Origin: Magnetococcales bacterium
Lineage (GTDB): Bacteria; Pseudomonadota; Magnetococcia; Magnetococcales; Magnetaquicoccaceae
Length of the DNA: 39,334 nucleotides
Assembly: GCA_015232245.1 (NCBI GenBank)
Contig: JADGAB010000004.1
Location: 1-39,334, forward strand
Direction of reading: 5' to 3'
How positions within the stretch are numbered: position 1 is the first letter of the stretch; every line of letters starts with the position of its first letter. This document shows positions 2,874-39,334 of this stretch, piece by piece. Made by a program: the position numbers and the translations under genes. The notes beneath the pieces are model-generated. The model worked only from the letters and a program-made list of their open reading frames with translations, had not been told where the DNA came from and did not search any database.

Positions 2874-4435
2874 TGAGTAGCATCACCCACTTCCAAGTCT
2901 TTTGCGGCCTCGGCGGCGGGGCCCTTGGATTCCAACAGGCATCACCCAGGATTCCGGGTGTGCAGGGGCGGTTCCGGTGCCTGGGTGGGATCGATTCTGA
3001 CCCGGCGGCAATCCGGGATTTCTCGCGCCTGGTCGGCACGCCCGGCACCGTGCTGGACCTGTTCGACCGCGACCAGTACACGGACTGGCACGGCCACGAG
3101 CCGCCAGCCGGGTGGCACGAGGCTACCCTGGATGACATACGGCGCGCTGCCGGGAGGGAGTCTCCGGACGTGGTGTTCACCTCGCCGCCGTGCAAGGGAT
3201 ACTCCGGCCTGCTGCCGGAGAGGTCCAGCAAAACGGCCAAGTACCAGGCCATGAACCGGCTGGCCCTGCGTGGGATCTGGCTCACCCTGGAGGCGTTTGC
3301 AGATGATCCACCGGCGTTCGTCATCCTGGAGAACGTGCCACGGATCGCCAGCCGTGGCCGCCACCTGCTGGACCAGATTGGCAACCTCCTCCGGCACCAC
3401 GGGTACGCCGTGGCTGAGACCGTCCATGACTGCGGGGAGTTGGGTGGACTCGCCCAGTCGCGCCGGAGGTTCCTGCTGGTGGCCCGCCATTTGGCGAAAG
3501 TCCCGCCCTACCTCTACCAGCCGGAGAGCAAGCCGCTCCGCACCGTGGGAGAGGTTATCGGCTCGTTGCCGGTGCCCATCGGGGAGCAGGCCAACCCAAT
3601 GCACCGGGTACCGTCGCTCTCCTGGCGTACCTGGGTGCGCCTGGCCCTGATTCCTCCCGGTGGGGACTGGCGGTCGCTGCGTGATCTGCGGGTGGAGGAT
3701 GGGGTGTTGGCCGACTACGCCATCCTGGCCACGCCCCGGGACGATCACCTGGGAGTCCACCGGATGGGCGACACTATGGGTACCGTCACCGGCAAGGCGG
3801 GGGCGACTAACGGGGCTTTCTCAATCGCAGATCCGCGTATTCTTGGCGGACAGGGCAAGCAGAGCTACAAGTCCGGCAACCTGTTCGGTATCACCACTTG
3901 GGATGGTCAGTCCGGCGGCGTCACCGGATCCGCCTGCCACGACAACGGGCCATGGACCATCGCTGATCCGAGGACGGCAATGTCCGGTGAGTACGGGCAA
4001 TACGGGATCATCCCGTGGGATCAATCCATGGGGGCTGTATCCGGCCAGTCCGCTCCAGGGGGTGGGCGATACTCGGTCGCCGACCCGCGCGCACCGGACC
4101 ATGCCGAGGGCAATCTCAACATGGTTCCCAAAGATCCGGACACCAGGGGCCTGTTCATCATTCGCGCCCTGCACGGCGGCGCGTGGCACCGGCCATTCAC
4201 CACACTGGAGCTGGCGGCGCTCCAGGGGTTCGATTTGGCCGATCCGCTTGACGGCACATCGGACACCCGGTGGCGCATGGCCATCGGCAATGCGGTCCCA
4301 CCACCGGCAGCGCAAGCCGTGGCTGAGGTAATCGGGCGAGCAATCCTGTTGGCGCGGGCCGGGGAGACGTATGTGATGGGGATGACGCCGGTCTGGGTGA
4401 GGCGGATGGCGGCGGCGGTGTCGTTAAAGAGGTGA
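2873..4435 (+). CDS. DNA (cytosine-5-)-methyltransferase
   Basis: Motif I FCGLGGGALGF, motif IV VFTSPPCKGYSG, motif VI VILENVPRI, motif VIII QSRRRFLLVA, C-terminal RWRMAIGNAVPPPAA. Confidence 0.92.
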   Translation: MSSITHFQVFCGLGGGALGFQQASPRIPGVQGRFRCLGGIDSDPAAIRDFSRLVGTPGTVLDLFDRDQYTDWHGHEPPAGWHEATLDDIRRAAGRESPDVVFTSPPCKGYSGLLPERSSKTAKYQAMNRLALRGIWLTLEAFADDPPAFVILENVPRIASRGRHLLDQIGNLLRHHGYAVAETVHDCGELGGLAQSRRRFLLVARHLAKVPPYLYQPESKPLRTVGEVIGSLPVPIGEQANPMHRVPSLSWRTWVRLALIPPGGDWRSLRDLRVEDGVLADYAILATPRDDHLGVHRMGDTMGTVTGKAGATNGAFSIADPRILGGQGKQSYKSGNLFGITTWDGQSGGVTGSACHDNGPWTIADPRTAMSGEYGQYGIIPWDQSMGAVSGQSAPGGGRYSVADPRAPDHAEGNLNMVPKDPDTRGLFIIRALHGGAWHRPFTTLELAALQGFDLADPLDGTSDTRWRMAIGNAVPPPAAQAVAEVIGRAILLARAGETYVMGMTPVWVRRMAAAVSLKR

Positions 4436-30222: not shown

Positions 30223-31626
30223 ATGGCTTACACGATAGATGATTGGTGGAATACCTTCAAGAAGCGCAACGCTCCGGCTTCTGACATGATGAGCACACCA
30301 CCCGCCAATGCGCTTGGTTTTGACCAGAACAAACCTGCGCCGTTGCCTGGGGCTCCGGCAGCGCCTGCAGATCAAAATCGCGAAAACACGGTTGGTGGAT
30401 TTCGGATATTGCCAAGAGAACCAGAGACCCCGTTGCCAGGGGCTCCGGCATCGCCACCGGCTGTGGTTCCCAAGCTTGACCAGTGGTTTGGGGGAGACAC
30501 CCGAGAACGCAGCAACGACTGGTTGACGGAGTTCAGGAACAACAACACGCAGACCGTTGTTCCTCTGAATGCAACGGCTTTGCCAGGTGCAGCGCCACCG
30601 GCTGTGGTTCCCAAGATCGACCAGTGGTTTGGTTCTGATGCGCCACCACGAAGCAACGACTGGTTGACGGAGTTCAGTAAGAACAACACGCAACCGGATG
30701 GGCCTGCCAATATTCTTGGTTTGCCTGGTGGTCCGGCAGCGCCTGCGGCGGTGGCAACTCCACCAAAAACACCCCCGGTAACGCCATTACCCCAGACAAA
30801 AAGTCCTGACACGCCTGGAACGTTTGCGAACAACCGGGAAACGACAACTTGGCCTGTTGAAATCGCGGACCCGACCAAGCCTTTCCCTGCGCCAACCCCC
30901 AATGCCAACAACCTCCAAAATCCAATCCCTGACAATACCCTCGGCCCCCAACCGAGGCAAACATGGCAGAGGATGAGACCCGACCCTCTGAATCCTGAAC
31001 CGGGCAGCATGCGGCCTTCGGGAAACTATTCTGGGCCATCCCAGGAAGCGTGGGGGTTGGCAGAACCACAACCCTTGCCAAACGGGCCTGATAATGTCGC
31101 ATCCAGGCATAACTCCTTCTCCCAGAGCCGGAGTGCGACCAATCCGGTTTTCAGGGAGATGTCACCGCAGCAAATAGAGGCTTTCAATAAAGCGTCGGAG
31201 ATTGTTGATAGATTATCCAACATGCCGGTCATGGAGAACGGAAGAACCATCAAAGGGAGAATGAACGAAACCGTCAGGACACTTCTCCAGGCTGCATTTG
31301 CTGGCATCGGCGCGCATGGGGCACAGTCGCAAAGCATTCATAACCAGGGTTCCAATCAGTGGAGCCTGCCGTCAACACCGCCAAGCGACAAGGGGAGATA
31401 TCATTTCACTCCGAACCCGAACTTTGACGGCAAATTGATTGTTTCGGATAGCGTCTCTGGTGATTCATGGCTCAGAACCCCTGGAGCGCCGCCCGTTCCA
31501 GGAACAGCCACGGCTCCGACAGGGAAGGCAGAGCCTGTTTTCGCAAGCCCTGAGGCGGCCAAGGCGGCGGGGAAGAAGCCGGGTGATGTTGTCACGACTG
31601 CGGACGGAAAAAGAAGGATTCTGTAA
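30223..31626 (+). CDS. Pro/Asn-rich putative internal virion protein with WF repeats
   Basis: 467 aa ORF; PAVVPK(L/I)DQWFG...RSNDWLTEF..NNTQ duplicated. Confidence 0.5.
   Translation: MAYTIDDWWNTFKKRNAPASDMMSTPPANALGFDQNKPAPLPGAPAAPADQNRENTVGGFRILPREPETPLPGAPASPPAVVPKLDQWFGGDTRERSNDWLTEFRNNNTQTVVPLNATALPGAAPPAVVPKIDQWFGSDAPPRSNDWLTEFSKNNTQPDGPANILGLPGGPAAPAAVATPPKTPPVTPLPQTKSPDTPGTFANNRETTTWPVEIADPTKPFPAPTPNANNLQNPIPDNTLGPQPRQTWQRMRPDPLNPEPGSMRPSGNYSGPSQEAWGLAEPQPLPNGPDNVASRHNSFSQSRSATNPVFREMSPQQIEAFNKASEIVDRLSNMPVMENGRTIKGRMNETVRTLLQAAFAGIGAHGAQSQSIHNQGSNQWSLPSTPPSDKGRYHFTPNPNFDGKLIVSDSVSGDSWLRTPGAPPVPGTATAPTGKAEPVFASPEAAKAAGKKPGDVVTTADGKRRIL
30453..30692 (+). repeat. 99-bp near-identical direct repeat, two copies (30453-30551, 30594-30692)
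   Basis: gccaccggctgtggttcccaag...agcaacgactggttgacggagttcag...aacaacacgca occurs twice, offset 141 bp. Confidence 0.9.
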
Positions 31627-34600
31627 TGCCCAACTACGCGAATGACCCATGGGCAGGGTTTGAACTGGTTGCCCCGAAGCAGAAGGAAGTTCAACCCGCC
31701 AAGCCGAAAGACCCCTGGGAAGGGTATCAGGAAGTCAAACCTTCGGATTCGAAAGACCCCTGGGCAGGGTATCAGGAAGTCAAACCTTCGGATTCGAAAG
31801 ACCCCTGGGCAGGGTATCAGGAAGTCAAACCTTCGGATCCAAAAGACCCCTGGGCAGGGTATCAGGAAGTCAAACCAGAGAACGCGCCTAAAATGACGTT
31901 CGGTCAGGCGTTTGGACAGGGTGTCGAACAGGCCAAAGAAATGGGGGCTGGCGGAATCAAGGTGATTGGTGAGGCGGCAGGCTGGCCATCATTTGTGGAT
32001 GCAGGGGAGAAATGGAGAAAAGAAGCGCATGATGCGGTGGAGGGGTACGGCCAGCAACAAACATTTGAAGGCATCCGCAGTCCTGGAGATTTAGGGCAGT
32101 GGGGCAAGGAAACTGTTGGGAGACAAATCCCCATAATGGCCCCTTCCGTGATTGGAGGTTTTGCGGGGGGGATGATTGGCGGCAGGATTTTCGGACCAAT
32201 CGGTGCCAGAATCGGTTCCAGAATCGGCGCAGGAGTTGGTGGATACCTGATAAATGTCGGTGATGTGGAAAACAACATCATGGACCGTGGCGATGGCGCA
32301 TCTGCTCCTTTGGCTGCGTTAGGTGGTGGTGCCGTGATCAGTGCCTTGGACAGTTACGGGTCTGGAAAATTAGGCGATAAGCTGGCTGGGATGATCGGCA
32401 AGAAAACGGCTGAAAACATTGCAGAAGTGACGCTGAAAGATCGACTGAAAGGAGTCGGAAAAGCGGCGTTGAAAGATGGCGTCATTGAGGGAGTCACGGA
32501 AACTGCGCAGGATTATGTCAGTGAGGGATCGGCAGCAACAGGGACAGGGACACCGTTCAATCCTGCCAACATTCAACCGTTGGAATCTGGTGCGGCTGGT
32601 TTCCTGTTGGGTGCGTTGATGGGGGGTGGAGGGCATTTGAGGCGACAAGGGCACGGCGAGCAAACTCCCTCGGGTTCATCCACCCAGGACACTGCCACCC
32701 AGGTTTCCCCCATCCCAGACCCGGCGCAGACCGCGCAAGACGAGTCGCATATCAATGATCAGGTGGAGGAATACCGTGATCTGTTCGCGCATTTGGTTGC
32801 AAATGGCGAGCATCCGGATGAGGTGGCGAAAAACCTCCAGGAGTTGTACGGCCCGCAGATCGCCGAATTGGGGAATCAGGGTGTGGATCTGGGGGAGCCT
32901 GCCCGGCAGGACTGGAGTCAGGCGGAAACCTCGGAACCGGTGCCGCCCCATCTTTCCGCGTCGGGGATTGCTGTGCCACCCGGGGAAAGGGCGGCCACGG
33001 AGAAGGGGCTTTCACAGGAAATCGCCTCACGCATGGCAGAACCCGCGCATCCACAACCGGTGGAGTCGGCACCTCAAGTCAGCCCGTCCGCGCCTCTCCC
33101 TGAAGCCGCTCCAGGGCCAGAGGCGGCGCGACAACCGGAGCGGGTCGTCAACCCACCGGTAGCGGTCACACCCCTGGAAACAGGCGGGCAACCCCTCGAT
33201 ATCGAAAAAATGGCGGACGCTTTCAGCCAATTTGGCGTGTCCGCCGCCAACCTGGAGAAGCACCTTGGAAAACCGTTGTCCGAAATCACCCCGGACGATA
33301 TGCAAACCTTGCGGCAGACCTATGCGCGTCTGCAAAAAGGCTCGTCATTGCCAGAAGAGGTCTTCCCGGATCTGCGGGTTGCGAAAATTCTTGCAAGCAG
33401 AGGGTTCCAGGATGGTCTGATCTTTGACGAGAATGGTCAACCCTGGAACACCATGCAAAAGGCGCGCTTGGCCTCCGGCGGCAATTGGACCACCCCTTTG
33501 CGCAATCAGGGGTATAACCTGATCCCGTACCAGCAGGAAGGCAATGGCGGATGGGGATTGCGGGTGGTGCCTCCGGAAGAGAAAATCGCCACCCCTCCCG
33601 CGTCTCCATCTTCCCAGATCAATCCCGCGCCCATGCCGCCCGGCGCGCAGGGAGCCCCCCCAGGATTGGCGGGACAACCAGCAACTCAACCAACACCCTC
33701 CCATCAAGAGGGCGTTGTCGTTTCCGGGGGAACCCCATTGCCGCCTGCCGGCAAGGGGGTTCCCCCGGCCATGACCGGAACGAACCAGGAGGCCGTCACG
33801 ACTGGCATGGCATCCGGAGGCCCAACCGACGTATTGGCATCCAACGGCAAGCCCTTCGTCAGCCAACGCGCCGCAAGTCTGGCCGCCAAGGCCAGAAAAA
33901 TCAGCGACACCCATGAACCGGTGGAAAACAGTGGGAATGGGTGGGTGTTGAGATCCAGAAACGCCCAGACCCAGCAGGCGCAACCCACCCAGCAGGCGCA
34001 ACCCGAACCGTTGACGCAGGCGACGCCCGACATCGCGACGCCTGAGCCGGTCCCGGAACAGCAGGGGGGAGAACTGCCAGGGGTTGGGGTGTCCGTGCGA
34101 CCGGATGCCGGGTCACATGTCTTCGAAAAGGATCCGGATTGGCTTCCTGCCAAAAAACAAAGCGACATCGAAGCGGCGCGACGTTTCGCGGAACGGCATT
34201 GGACTCCCAAACAGACGGAAGCCATCAAGGCGCAACTGGTTGATCCGGCCAATACGGTGTTCATCTCGCAACCAAGTACCAGTGGACAAAACACGCTCCC
34301 AACCGGGTTGGCGGAAAAACTGGCAAAAGAAACAGGTGGAACAGTTCTTGATGGAGATCAATTTTTCTTGGCGCAACACACAGAACAGTCCAAGAATATC
34401 CAAAAAGACAGACGGGTTTTCCATCCAAGAGACTATGAAATTCTGGACCCTGGGAAACTCCGCGACCTGATTCATGGAAGAGAGGTCGTTATCGCGGATG
34501 ATGTGTTCACCACAGGGGGTTCGGTTGGGCAACTCATTCGTACCATGAAAGCCGCCGGGATGCCGGTGAAGGCGGTGGCGGGCTATGTGGGCGATACACG

Positions 34601-37600
34601 GCTTAAGCCGGAACCACAAATCATTTCCTCCTTGCAGGGAGCGCTCAGGAATGCGAAAATAGATGTCAAAGGCAAAGACCTTGCGTCTATCCTGACCCGA
34701 GCGGAAATACAAGAAATCACGAGGCTGATCAACAATGCGCGAACTCCTGAAGCCCGTCAAACCCTTGCCAGAGACCTACATGGGTTACTCACCGGAAGAA
34801 TTGATCCAGGTATGGTTGCAAATCAACTCTCCGGGAGGAGCAGTGGGAACCCCACGGGAAAAAATTGGGGCAATGCGGCGCATGTTCCTGGAATACAAAA
34901 TGACGCCGGGGTTCAAACGACCACCGAGCCCGTGGGAAATCGGGAGATAGCCGGGAAAGGGCCAAATGACCCCCATGTTTCAAGCCCCCCCGGAGAAGCG
35001 GGAGATCGAGCCCGAGGGTTTCAGGAACTGACAGGACTCCCAGACCAGCCCGCCGCCCCCCGGCAAGACCACCCAACGCCATCCCCCAAGGATGGCGTTG
35101 CTGTTTCCGACATCCCCGCCCATGGAGCACTTGAGCCAGGGGATATCGAAAAGGATCCCATTACCGGAAAAGAATTCGCATCGGACGAAAGCGCCAGACT
35201 TTTCACAAAGCTTGCGAAAAAACCATTTGAAGTGGTAAAAGTTGGACAGGAAAAATGGGTGGCCAGACCTGTGCCGCAACCAACCTCAACTCAAGTGGAG
35301 ACCCCCGATGAACATCGACCCGAACATGATCCTGGGAGAACTCAAACTGAAGAACCCGGAAGAGTACGCCCGGTTGAAGAAAGAGGGCGGACTGCAGGCC
35401 CTGGACCAGTACTGCCGGGAGAAGGAACGGGAGATCAGGGACACCATGAGCTTCATCAAGCCGGTGAATCCGAACGCCACGGAACCGAATCCGGCGGATC
35501 TGGTGATCGCCCGGGAACTGGCGATGAGCTGACCAACCATCGGATCCTGCCCGGTTCGTTGGAAGAGAACCGGGGCATGAAAACCAAGGCCCGGGACAAT
35601 CTGACCGCCATCAAGCTGGTCAAGCAACTTGCGACGCAAGGACGCGCCGCCACGCCGGAAGAACGGCAACTCCTCGCCAGGTATGTGGGTTGGGGCGGGT
35701 TGAGCGGTGCGTTTCCCAATTCGAAGGGTGATTTCGGTCCGGGCATGCGCGAAATCGGTGCGGAGTTGCGCCAGATCCTCACCGACGAGGAGTATGCCAC
35801 GGCCCGAAAATCCACCCAGTATGCCCACTACACCTCTGAACCCGTGGTGCGGGCCATGTGGCAGGCGGTGGAACGTTTCGGCTTCCAGGGGGGCAAGGTG
35901 TTCGAACCCGGCATGGGCACAGGGAATTTCGCGGGTATGATGCCCGAAACCCTGGTGAACCAATCGGACTATACCGGGGTGGAGATGGATCCCATGACCG
36001 CGCGCATCGCGCAGGCCCTGTATCCGAAATGGGACATCCGGGAAGCGGATTTCACCCGCTATCAGACTCCCAAGAACTCCTTTGATCTGGCCATCGGCAA
36101 CCCGCCTTTCGCCGACATCCGGGTCAAATCCGATCCGGAATACGCCAAACACGCCTTTCTGCTGCATGACTACTTTTTCGCCAAGTCCATGGACGCCTTG
36201 AAACCAGGAGGCATCCTCGCGTTCATCTCCTCGGCTGGCACCCTGAACAAAACAGACCCCAGAGCGCGCAATCATCTGGCGGACCGGGCCGACTTTCTGG
36301 GCGCGATCCGCTTGCCGGGCAATGCGTTTTCCAAAAACGCCGGAACCGAGGTCACGACCGACATCATCTTCCTGCGCAAACGCCAGACGGGAGAAGCGCA
36401 GGGAGACCGCGCCTGGACCCGATCCGAATCGTTCACCGGACCGGACAAAACCGGGAATCCTGAAACCGGCTACAGAAACGCCTGGTTCGGCACCCACCCT
36501 GAAATGGTTCTGGGAGAGGAAGGGTTCTTCGACCGCCTTTATCCGGGACGGTACGCGGTACGGGCGCGCCCAGGGGACGATCTGAACAAACTGCTCGCCA
36601 CGGCCCTGCAACACCTTCCCGGGAATGTTCTCCAGGGGAAAAACCCGGCCACACCACAGCAGGAGAAGAGCGATACGCGGGTTGTCGAAACCAAGAACGG
36701 ATCCTATTACGTCCGGGACGGAGGTCTGTTCCAGTTCGTGGAGGGGCGCGGCGTACCGGTGTTGACACGGGGACCGGGAGTGGTCGGAGGCATGACCCGG
36801 GCCGAACAGGAGGTGGTCAAGCGGCTGATTCCCATGCGGGACGCCTTGCGCGCGGTCTACGCCGCCGATGCCGGCAACGACACGCAGGATGCCGCCAAGG
36901 CCAGAAAGACGTTGAACCGACTCTATGACGCCTTTGTGGCCACCCATGGCCCGATCAACAAAACGGTGGTCACCACCAGCAAACCGACCTTGCTCCAGCA
37001 GGAGAGAGCCAGGAACGAAGCGCGTGATCAGTCCGAGGGGTTTTTTGACGAAGGCTCGTTCGATCCCTCCGCAATGATCCTGGCCAACCGTCCGATCAAG
37101 GAAATCGCCGAAGCCAGACAGAAAGCGCGCAACGAGGCGGCAGCCAGAAACCGATCCTGGGATGAGGGTTCTTTCGATCCCGGGAAAATGCCGGACAACG
37201 AAACCTTCCGCTATCCGAACATCGACCCGTTCACCGATGACCCGGAGAGTTACCGGTTGCGCTCCATCGAGGCCTATGACAAGGAGACCGACAAGGCATC
37301 CAAGCGGCGGGTGTTCACCGAAAACCCGGTGGCGGCGGAAACCGCACCAGTGATCCGTTCCGTTGGTGACGCCCTGATGCACGTTTTGAACAAAACAGGT
37401 CGCGTGGACATCGACGCGACTGCCGAGGTGGCCGGGAAAAACCGGGATGCGGTCATCCAGGAACTGGGGGACCGGGTGTTTCAGATTCCCGGGTCAAACG
37501 ATCAGTGGGTGACGCGGCATGAATACCTGTCCGGGCGGGTCAAGACGAAACTCAAAGAGGCCATGGAGGCAGCCAAAAGGGATCCATCCTTCGAGCGCAA

Positions 37601-39334
37601 CGTCGAGGCCCTGACCAAGGCCCAACCGGCCCCGTTGGCACCGGAGGAGATCCATTTGACCCTGGGCATGAACTGGATCCCGCCCAGACTCATCGAGGAG
37701 TTCGCCGAAAAAGGTCTTGGATTGCGTCACGCATCCGTCCATTCCATTCCGGAGATCAGCGAATGGACCGTGCAGGGGGACGAGAAGTCGGCGGCAGCGA
37801 CCAGCGTTTGGGGTACCCCGGAAAAAAGCGCCATTGAACTGCTGCGGTACGCACTGAACAAACAGGTGCCCCGCATCCATCACCCTGGAGAGCAGCCCGG
37901 CAAGATTGGTCCTTTGAACACCGAGGCCACCGGCGCGGCGATTTCCAAAGTGAACGAAATCCAGGAGCGGTTCAAAGAGTGGGCATACGGGAAAGACTGG
38001 CTGTTTCAACTCTACAATGACATGTTCAACAACAACGTGGTTCCAGACCGGATGGACGGCGAGTATCTGACCACTCCCGGCGTCCGGGTGGGCTGGGAGT
38101 GGCGGCCCCATCAAAAGTCCGTGATCGCCCGCATCATCATGCGCGGCAACACCTACATGGCCCACTCCGTGGGGTCAGGAAAGACCTCGGCCATGATCGG
38201 ATCGGCCATGGAAATGCGGCGGCTCGGACTGGTGAAAAAACCCATGTTCGTGGTGCCGAACCACATGTTGATCCAATTCGCATCCGAATTCTACGATCAG
38301 TACCCAAACGCCAAAATCATGGTGGCGGACGAGGAGAAATTCCACACCTCCAGACGCAAGCAGTTCATCGCGGATGTGGCCAGTCAGGATCTGGATGCGG
38401 TCATCATCACCCATTCGGCCTTTGGCATGATTCCGATCAGCGACGCCTTTCAGGACCGGTTGATTGAAGAGCAGGTCGAGCGCTATCGCAACGCCATTGC
38501 CGAGGCCCAGAGCGCAAGAAACGAAGAAGCGCGGATCACGGTCAAACGTCTGGAAAAGATGGTGCAAAAGCTTCAGGAACGCCTGACCGGTCAGGGGAAT
38601 CTGCGCAAGGATCAGGTATTCACCTTCGAAGAGATGGGGGCGGATTTCCTGTTTGTGGATGAGGCCCATGAATTCCGCAAACTGTCATTCCCGACCAGGC
38701 AGCAGTTGAAAGGGATCGATCCGGAAGGCTCCAAAAAGGCGTGGGATCTGTACACCAAAACCCGGTATCTGGAGACCGTGCGACCCGGACGCAATCTGGT
38801 GATGTCCTCCGGGACGCCGGTCACCAACACCATGGGCGAACTGTTCAATCTCTCCCGCTTCATGCAACCAAACGAATTGAAATTGAACGGGTTGGAGACC
38901 TTTGACGACTGGTCCGCCATGTACGGCACCGTTTCCGCCGACCAGGAACAGACCCCGACCGGCGGGTATCAACTGGTGACCCGGTTCAATCGCTTCGTCA
39001 ACGTGGCGGATCTGTCCCGCATGGTGCGGCAGAACATGGATGTCGTGACCTCCTCCCAACTCGGCGAGTTCGTCACCCGCCCGCAAGAGAAACGGCAACT
39101 CCATATCCTGCCACGCCTGCCCATCTTGCGGGCGTTCCAGAAACAGTTGAATACCCGGTGGGAGATCATCAAAAACCGCAATGGCAAATCAAAACCCGGG
39201 GAAGACATCATCCTGAACATCATCGGCGACGGTCGCAAGGCGGCCTTCGACATGCGGTTGATCAACAGTAACGCACCGTCCGATCCCGACAGCAAATTGA
39301 ACACCATTATCCGCAACGTGTTCGACATATGGGG
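31626..39334 (+). CDS. large polyvalent protein (DarB-like): DPW repeats, glycine zipper, PRTase, N6-adenine methylase, SF2 helicase; 3' end outside window
   Basis: Frame opens at ATG 31626 (overlaps upstream TAA) with no stop to 39334 (2,569 codons). Motifs VVIADDVFTTGGSVGQLI, VFEPGMGTGNF, AIGNPPF, AHSVGSGKTS, FLFVDEAHEF. Confidence 0.85.
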   Translation, partial: MPNYANDPWAGFELVAPKQKEVQPAKPKDPWEGYQEVKPSDSKDPWAGYQEVKPSDSKDPWAGYQEVKPSDPKDPWAGYQEVKPENAPKMTFGQAFGQGVEQAKEMGAGGIKVIGEAAGWPSFVDAGEKWRKEAHDAVEGYGQQQTFEGIRSPGDLGQWGKETVGRQIPIMAPSVIGGFAGGMIGGRIFGPIGARIGSRIGAGVGGYLINVGDVENNIMDRGDGASAPLAALGGGAVISALDSYGSGKLGDKLAGMIGKKTAENIAEVTLKDRLKGVGKAALKDGVIEGVTETAQDYVSEGSAATGTGTPFNPANIQPLESGAAGFLLGALMGGGGHLRRQGHGEQTPSGSSTQDTATQVSPIPDPAQTAQDESHINDQVEEYRDLFAHLVANGEHPDEVAKNLQELYGPQIAELGNQGVDLGEPARQDWSQAETSEPVPPHLSASGIAVPPGERAATEKGLSQEIASRMAEPAHPQPVESAPQVSPSAPLPEAAPGPEAARQPERVVNPPVAVTPLETGGQPLDIEKMADAFSQFGVSAANLEKHLGKPLSEITPDDMQTLRQTYARLQKGSSLPEEVFPDLRVAKILASRGFQDGLIFDENGQPWNTMQKARLASGGNWTTPLRNQGYNLIPYQQEGNGGWGLRVVPPEEKIATPPASPSSQINPAPMPPGAQGAPPGLAGQPATQPTPSHQEGVVVSGGTPLPPAGKGVPPAMTGTNQEAVTTGMASGGPTDVLASNGKPFVSQRAASLAAKARKISDTHEPVENSGNGWVLRSRNAQTQQAQPTQQAQPEPLTQATPDIATPEPVPEQQGGELPGVGVSVRPDAGSHVFEKDPDWLPAKKQSDIEAARRFAERHWTPKQTEAIKAQLVDPANTVFISQPSTSGQNTLPTGLAEKLAKETGGTVLDGDQFFLAQHTEQSKNIQKDRRVFHPRDYEILDPGKLRDLIHGREVVIADDVFTTGGSVGQLIRTMKAAGMPVKAVAGYVGDTRLKPEPQIISSLQGALRNAKIDVKGKDLASILTRAEIQEITRLINNARTPEARQTLARDLHGLLTGRIDPGMVANQLSGRSSGNPTGKNWGNAAHVPGIQNDAGVQTTTEPVGNREIAGKGPNDPHVSSPPGEAGDRARGFQELTGLPDQPAAPRQDHPTPSPKDGVAVSDIPAHGALEPGDIEKDPITGKEFASDESARLFTKLAKKPFEVVKVGQEKWVARPVPQPTSTQVETPDEHRPEHDPGRTQTEEPGRVRPVEERGRTAGPGPVLPGEGTGDQGHHELHQAGESERHGTESGGSGDRPGTGDELTNHRILPGSLEENRGMKTKARDNLTAIKLVKQLATQGRAATPEERQLLARYVGWGGLSGAFPNSKGDFGPGMREIGAELRQILTDEEYATARKSTQYAHYTSEPVVRAMWQAVERFGFQGGKVFEPGMGTGNFAGMMPETLVNQSDYTGVEMDPMTARIAQALYPKWDIREADFTRYQTPKNSFDLAIGNPPFADIRVKSDPEYAKHAFLLHDYFFAKSMDALKPGGILAFISSAGTLNKTDPRARNHLADRADFLGAIRLPGNAFSKNAGTEVTTDIIFLRKRQTGEAQGDRAWTRSESFTGPDKTGNPETGYRNAWFGTHPEMVLGEEGFFDRLYPGRYAVRARPGDDLNKLLATALQHLPGNVLQGKNPATPQQEKSDTRVVETKNGSYYVRDGGLFQFVEGRGVPVLTRGPGVVGGMTRAEQEVVKRLIPMRDALRAVYAADAGNDTQDAAKARKTLNRLYDAFVATHGPINKTVVTTSKPTLLQQERARNEARDQSEGFFDEGSFDPSAMILANRPIKEIAEARQKARNEAAARNRSWDEGSFDPGKMPDNETFRYPNIDPFTDDPESYRLRSIEAYDKETDKASKRRVFTENPVAAETAPVIRSVGDALMHVLNKTGRVDIDATAEVAGKNRDAVIQELGDRVFQIPGSNDQWVTRHEYLSGRVKTKLKEAMEAAKRDPSFERNVEALTKAQPAPLAPEEIHLTLGMNWIPPRLIEEFAEKGLGLRHASVHSIPEISEWTVQGDEKSAAATSVWGTPEKSAIELLRYALNKQVPRIHHPGEQPGKIGPLNTEATGAAISKVNEIQERFKEWAYGKDWLFQLYNDMFNNNVVPDRMDGEYLTTPGVRVGWEWRPHQKSVIARIIMRGNTYMAHSVGSGKTSAMIGSAMEMRRLGLVKKPMFVVPNHMLIQFASEFYDQYPNAKIMVADEEKFHTSRRKQFIADVASQDLDAVIITHSAFGMIPISDAFQDRLIEEQVERYRNAIAEAQSARNEEARITVKRLEKMVQKLQERLTGQGNLRKDQVFTFEEMGADFLFVDEAHEFRKLSFPTRQQLKGIDPEGSKKAWDLYTKTRYLETVRPGRNLVMSSGTPVTNTMGELFNLSRFMQPNELKLNGLETFDDWSAMYGTVSADQEQTPTGGYQLVTRFNRFVNVADLSRMVRQNMDVVTSSQLGEFVTRPQEKRQLHILPRLPILRAFQKQLNTRWEIIKNRNGKSKPGEDIILNIIGDGRKAAFDMRLINSNAPSDPDSKLNTIIRNVFDIW
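31707..31877 (+). repeat. 45-bp tandem repeat, four copies, encoding KDPWAGYQEVKPSDS
   Basis: Units start at 31707, 31752, 31797, 31842; nearly identical at nucleotide level. Confidence 0.95.
34735..34950 (+). CDS. embedded +1-frame ORF (71 aa) inside the giant ORF
   Basis: ATG 34735 with GAGG 10 nt upstream. MRELLKPVKPLPETYMGYSPEELIQVWLQINSPGGAVGTPREKIGAMRRMFLEYKMTPGFKRPPSPWEIGR. GC3 about 63% vs about 46% for the giant frame. Confidence 0.5.
   Translation: MRELLKPVKPLPETYMGYSPEELIQVWLQINSPGGAVGTPREKIGAMRRMFLEYKMTPGFKRPPSPWEIGR
35308..35532 (+). CDS. embedded +1-frame ORF (74 aa) inside the giant ORF
   Basis: ATG 35308 with GGAG 7 nt upstream. MNIDPNMILGELKLKNPEEYARLKKEGGLQALDQYCREKEREIRDTMSFIKPVNPNATEPNPADLVIARELAMS. 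GC3 about 84% vs about 34% for the giant frame over the same bases. Confidence 0.65.
   Translation: MNIDPNMILGELKLKNPEEYARLKKEGGLQALDQYCREKEREIRDTMSFIKPVNPNATEPNPADLVIARELAMS

Follow-up and report, generated by a model that had tools for sequence, protein, structure and literature searches.

Comparative sequence evidence for a TnpV-related gene nested in the giant DarB-like genes of phages

The open reading frame (ORF) at positions 35308–35532 of the analysed DNA is very probably a real gene, nested in the +1 frame of a giant DarB-like gene, with the same bases coding for two proteins; this degree of confidence concerns the nested gene and its dual coding, and excludes the job of the small protein. 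The ORF itself, the family to which it belongs, the constancy of its +1 frame, selection on both frames and the enrichment of Shine-Dalgarno (SD) motifs were shown by comparative sequence analysis, from which we infer that both frames are actually translated.

The window, i.e. the whole stretch of 39,334 nucleotides that was analysed, comes from one contig (JADGAB010000004.1) of a Magnetococcales bacterium, and this contig is part of a 3.7-Mb genome bin. The window belongs to a phage, with terminase, portal, major head protein, head closure and integrase all present. The host of the embedded ORF is a giant polyvalent gene (Table 1). On one chain it carries an adenine methylase followed by an SF2 helicase, as identified by the Pfam families Eco57I (E = 1.4e-7) and ResIII; in PHROGs, the methylase part corresponds to the DarB-like phrog_10089 (E = 1e-106). 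The name LPD36, used in Table 1 for the start of the methylase module, is taken from PMC5512222. For phage P1 DarB, both packaging into the virion and protection of the injected DNA were reported, and packaging was reported for gp69 of phage JC1; the giant homolog was found in JC1 virions by 51 unique peptides (PMC9144972).

Three further features of the region were observed. Tandem repeats of type DPWAGYQEVKPSDSK are located at the start of the giant protein (window 31642–31896). Directly upstream of the giant gene, there is one 467-residue Pro/Ala/Asn-rich protein (window 30223–31626), which is cysteine-free and has no Pfam match. On the minus strand, one 698-residue open frame (window 35286–37382) runs opposite to the embedded gene and the methylase; it is probably artefactual, caused by the composition of GC-rich coding DNA.

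Table 1. Positions, in the window, of the embedded gene and of the parts of its giant host gene
Feature	Position	Strand	Description
Giant DarB-like polyvalent gene	31626..39332	+	2569 aa, no stop, open at contig end, cysteine-free
Shine-Dalgarno GGAG	35297..35300	+	7-nt spacer, then embedded ATG
Giant-frame linker over embedded gene	35307..35531	+	G/R/P/E-rich, unconserved; kept clear of stops and cysteines across the family
Embedded gene (putative)	35308..35532	+	74 aa; predicted small four-helix acidic protein, distant TnpV relative; frame +1 of giant gene
Methylase module start, giant frame	35532..36300	+	NHRILPGSLEE..., probably LPD36, then Eco57I-type adenine methylase
SF2 helicase region of giant	38097..38681	+	Pfam ResIII, E = 2e-7, residues 856–1050 of the fragment starting at 35532

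The embedded ORF is complete and lies fully inside the giant gene, on the same strand and in a different frame. Its translation is MNIDPNMILGELKLKNPEEYARLKKEGGLQALDQYCREKEREIRDTMSFIKPVNPNATEPNPADLVIARELAMS, followed by the stop codon; the giant frame reads DEHRPEHDPGRTQTEEPGRVRPVEERGRTAG... over the same bases. An earlier note on this DNA had described a 74-residue +1 ORF at this place, with GGAG 7 nt before its ATG, inside a giant frame that stays open and is G/R/P/E-rich; the translations, the ORF list and the sequence bear out each of these points. The hand counts of GC3 given there were reproduced exactly, being 62 of 74 for the embedded frame and 25 of 74 for the giant frame; the third frame has 43 of 74. 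The suggestion that a functional gene is overprinted in the linker is strongly supported by homologs, by conservation in the embedded frame, by SD enrichment and by stand-alone TnpV relatives.

Two homologs with 77–78% identity were found in a sister Magnetococcales genome, each located in the +1 frame of a giant frame that is open; that genome bin (G009) contains two related copies of the phage region (L012 and L013) on different contigs. Among 399 genomes of the phylum that were surveyed, no copies beyond these three known ones were found. When the 74-residue protein or its three close copies were used as queries, no matches were obtained in phages or viral contigs, because the embedded family is too divergent for such searches. 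A protein-like +1 ORF upstream of the methylase does recur in distant phages. Eight such ORFs were used to seed a family profile, which was iterated and scanned against 5949 six-frame ORFs of 82 DarB-like methylase-helicase loci; these had been collected by methylase similarity, not by their open frame, with the exception of the window and its two close copies. Family members are present in 79 of the 82 loci. Each of them is in frame +1, the other five frames yielding no member, and sits upstream of the methylase in the giant frame; the profile scan gave no recognisable member in the other three loci. The window protein matches the profile with an E-value of 1.7e-10. Judged by the sister homologs in the same +1 frame and by this recurrence across loci, the embedded ORF is beyond chance.

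Among the hosts given in the records are Burkholderia, Vibrio, Erwinia, Klebsiella, Ochrobactrum, Pseudoalteromonas, Pseudomonas and Microcystis. In phage JC1 (OM283127), the embedded ORF occupies positions 49303–49641 of the record. The family proteins are acidic, with a median pI of 5.0. In the phage records inspected, the small gene has no separate annotation; most annotated records show one giant CDS, and in the Itty13 record the deposited CDSs are on the opposite strand. Neither PHROGs nor NCBIfam holds a family for the embedded protein. At the corresponding position before the methylase, phage 8P (L029:2097–2411) and Bacteroides phage BKO1-TP3 (L108:2585–2914) have protein-like +1 ORFs of a different kind, and this slot may therefore hold other nested genes; neither ORF has homologs in the phage collection. 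In one more locus (L088:2408–3028), the embedded gene is immediately preceded by the end of a second protein-like +1 ORF, and two nested genes may stand there in tandem.

Profile searches relate the embedded family to TnpV (PF14198), the window member distantly. Among 58 family members, 35 match TnpV (best E = 2.5e-7) and the next family is matched by 2; profile comparison between the embedded family and seven TnpV proteins gave 96.9% (E = 1.4e-10). The window protein itself has no direct Pfam TnpV match above the cut-off. Its AlphaFold2 model contains four helices (mean pLDDT 86); fold searches with the model against PDB and BFVD gave no significant match, and the best E-value in the sequence search of solved structures was 0.37.

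Seven Bacillota-type loci (L105, L106, L110, L113, L115, L117 and L119) also have a TnpV protein above the Pfam cut-off nested in frame +1; of these, L113 and L115, with a long open giant frame, were assigned to the nested set by frame alone. The giant frame is open in all seven (0.017 expected), and T-ending codons were used in 0 of 162 forbidden places, compared to 78 of 343 elsewhere. The TnpV of L117 lies inside one annotated SNF2-related protein, and the records of L105, L106, L110 and L119 carry a related methylase. Nothing was found when viral contigs were scanned with the Bacillota TnpV. Stand-alone TnpV genes, with 4–14 stops in their -1 frame, adjoin serine recombinases (L116 and L118) or are located on a resistance plasmid (L114). 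Stand-alone homologs of the embedded protein, a search for which the earlier note had proposed, are thus present as TnpV relatives.

The position before the methylase, the co-divergence of the embedded protein with the methylase (0.35, versus a null maximum of 0.11) and the presumed synthesis from one shared mRNA suggest that the small protein assists the methylase-helicase module as its partner or chaperone. These three points are the basis of the assignment, which we regard as plausible but short of probable. Its main rival is that the same nested gene has another job and does not serve the giant, being devoted to TnpV-like control of excision or recombination or to some other function of the element; we consider this rather unlikely. 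It draws on the recombinase neighbours of stand-alone TnpV and on the excision role that was postulated for TnpV of Tn4451 from its similarity to lambda Xis (PMC3158075), a role for which we found no test in the open-access papers searched. Against it, the small gene of phages accompanies the methylase module in nearly all loci, and the two co-vary.

In the 74 nonredundant loci, the family members start with ATG (71) or GTG (3). SD-like motifs precede 72% of the family start ATGs and 6% of control ATGs, and strong SD motifs precede 34% and 1%, respectively (p = 2e-29). These percentages come from a blind choice of starts; in the other count, starts were picked partly by their SD, and that count is biased for this reason. 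Programmed frameshifting, either by a +1 shift into the small frame or by a -1 shift out of it into the methylase, would produce fusion proteins rather than a small protein with its own start. One record agrees with such fusion: in Sinorhizobium phage PBC5 (L102, ~3733–4306), the giant N-terminal domain is in frame with the TnpV-like domain; a longer CDS ends with this domain, and the methylase has a CDS of its own. However, an indel or an old sequencing error explains this arrangement as well. The SD and the ATG are conserved, in-frame stops occur within 10 codons upstream of the start in 23 of the 74 loci, and -1 slippery heptamers are found in 7 loci, compared to 9 in controls; the upstream stops and the unenriched heptamers argue against frameshifting, which is unsupported and, in our judgement, very unlikely.

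No stop interrupts the giant frame over the embedded gene in any of the 74 nonredundant loci, and this is so at a GC content of 0.36 as well. With synonymous codons resampled from each locus's own methylase usage, only 8.3 open loci were expected, and only 15.5% of same-length methylase windows are open in the equivalent frame. One stop arises in the giant frame when an embedded third-position T precedes AA, AG or GA. Such stop-making T-ending synonymous codons were used in 0 of 1493 places in the stricter count (0 of 1584 in the first count). Cysteine-making T-ending codons are likewise absent over the overlap (0 of 629), whereas T was used in 294 of 1624 places (18%) where the giant frame gains serine, and in 21% of the cysteine-making contexts of the methylase controls. 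Avoidance of cysteine is a constraint on amino acids, and the giant frame is therefore evidently translated through the overlap; by these codon counts, the outer frame is under coding constraint there and is kept free of stops and cysteines. The linker is low in Trp, Phe, Tyr, Met, Leu and Ile, and high in Gly, Arg and Asp. In total, DarB-like giant proteins contain 40 cysteines in 159,105 residues, and the window giant contains none. The lack of cysteine would suit a protein that is ejected through the oxidising periplasm. Different from the nearly cysteine-free DarB-like phage giants, the nested-TnpV giants of the Bacillota-type loci contain 0.3–1.2% cysteine.

As the alternative to overprinting, the earlier note had offered an older operon fused by an accidentally open frame: the N-terminal, small and methylase-helicase genes would be separate, the frame between them would be open by chance, and no continuous giant would exist. 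The unconserved sequence of the linker agrees with this, and the high embedded GC3 lowers the chance of -1 stops, the window locus taken alone being open with a probability of 0.125. However, neither the 74 open loci nor the missing stop- and cysteine-making codons are in line with chance. Furthermore, one giant-frame SD plus start near the embedded stop was found in 3% of loci, compared to 18% of control positions, which argues against a separately started methylase. Accidental fusion is even less probable than frameshifting. What stands of the proposal is that the small gene is the folded and conserved reading, of which stand-alone forms exist; the accident does not stand, as the frame is held open and cysteine-free in the 74 nonredundant loci.

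Over the overlap, the embedded proteins of the three Magnetococcales copies are 77–84% identical and the giant-frame linkers 52–59%; just upstream of the embedded start, the linkers are apparently mutually unrelated. Among these copies (Nei-Gojobori), dN/dS is 0.13–0.31 in the embedded frame and 1.7–2.4 in the giant frame over the overlap; just downstream of it, the giant-frame value is 0.10–0.14. Comparison of dN/dS per frame, also proposed in the earlier note, thus places the amino-acid constraint in the overlap on the embedded frame. Eight further pairs gave embedded dN/dS values of 0.18–0.60, indicating purifying selection on the nested protein. The idea that the giant frame alone matters, with the embedded ORF and its codon signal as by-products, could appeal to the single-sequence searches that found no relatives in phage collections, but it is refuted on sequence grounds by the profile family confined to one frame and by the dN/dS results, is further contradicted by the stand-alone TnpV relatives, and has practically no chance of being right.

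For the nested, dually coding gene, the most likely mechanism is that ribosomes start independently at the embedded SD and ATG on the giant mRNA. The product of this internal start would be one small, acidic, all-helical protein, a distant TnpV relative. Other ribosomes would continue in the giant frame and translate the same bases into a disordered, cysteine-free linker that joins the N-terminal domains to the methylase-helicase module. Selection preserves the amino acids of the small protein and, at the same time, excludes stops and cysteines from the giant frame. As the linker is unconserved, in contrast to the small protein with its conserved sequence and stand-alone relatives, the TnpV-type gene is probably the older one, and the giant frame laid over it is the younger reading. 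We tentatively propose that a living TnpV-type gene was fused over: the giants may have been extended in frame without destroying it, its -1 reading becoming the disordered linker, and a dedicated partnership of the small protein with the injected methylase-helicase may be what has locked the pair together across Pseudomonadota phages and Bacillota elements.

Should the small protein indeed be produced, annotation that permits one gene per stretch has overlooked an entire family of genes in phages and mobile elements. The overlapping pair would also be unusually widespread, and the direction of the overlap would be readable, owing to the stand-alone relatives of the inner protein and the unconserved linker of the outer reading. 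In addition, the small protein is a candidate for the missing partner in DarB-type antirestriction; no homologs of the P1 helpers DdrA, DdrB, Hdf and Ulx were identified in Lessieviruses (PMC9144972).

The embedded family shares with TnpV of the Tn4451-type transposons the profile relation, the pattern '..P..Y..L...G.L..' and an A.E....A..L-type end, and bona fide TnpV is nested in frame +1 as well, in the Bacillota-type loci. Different from TnpV, the window protein lacks the N-terminal part and the direct Pfam match; moreover, the named TnpV was described as a stand-alone transposon gene (PMC3158075). The host gene resembles the DarB-like polyvalents, such as phage P1 DarB and the Bcep22-like giants (PMC5512222), in combining methylase and SF2 helicase in one giant, presumably virion-associated protein; however, no nested gene was described for them in the open-access literature searched. 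P1 darB is shorter. Its neighbour ulx lies downstream, and identity of the embedded protein with P1 Ulx was set aside for this reason; the scan of the P1 darB/ulx stretch with the family profile gave no match among the matches listed.

Overlapping genes, TnpV and DarB are each already known. We found no report of a TnpV-like gene nested in DarB-type giants; as this covers open-access papers, an earlier report is possible. Rz1 in Rz and phiX174 E in D are complete genes inside another gene, in a shifted frame and with their own start, and the present gene is like them a complete nested gene on the same strand. An embedded Rz1 was also described in JC1 (PMC9144972). Different from these cases, stand-alone homologs of the nested protein exist here, the outer reading is a linker without conservation in a giant virion protein, and the pair is found in both Pseudomonadota phages and Bacillota elements.
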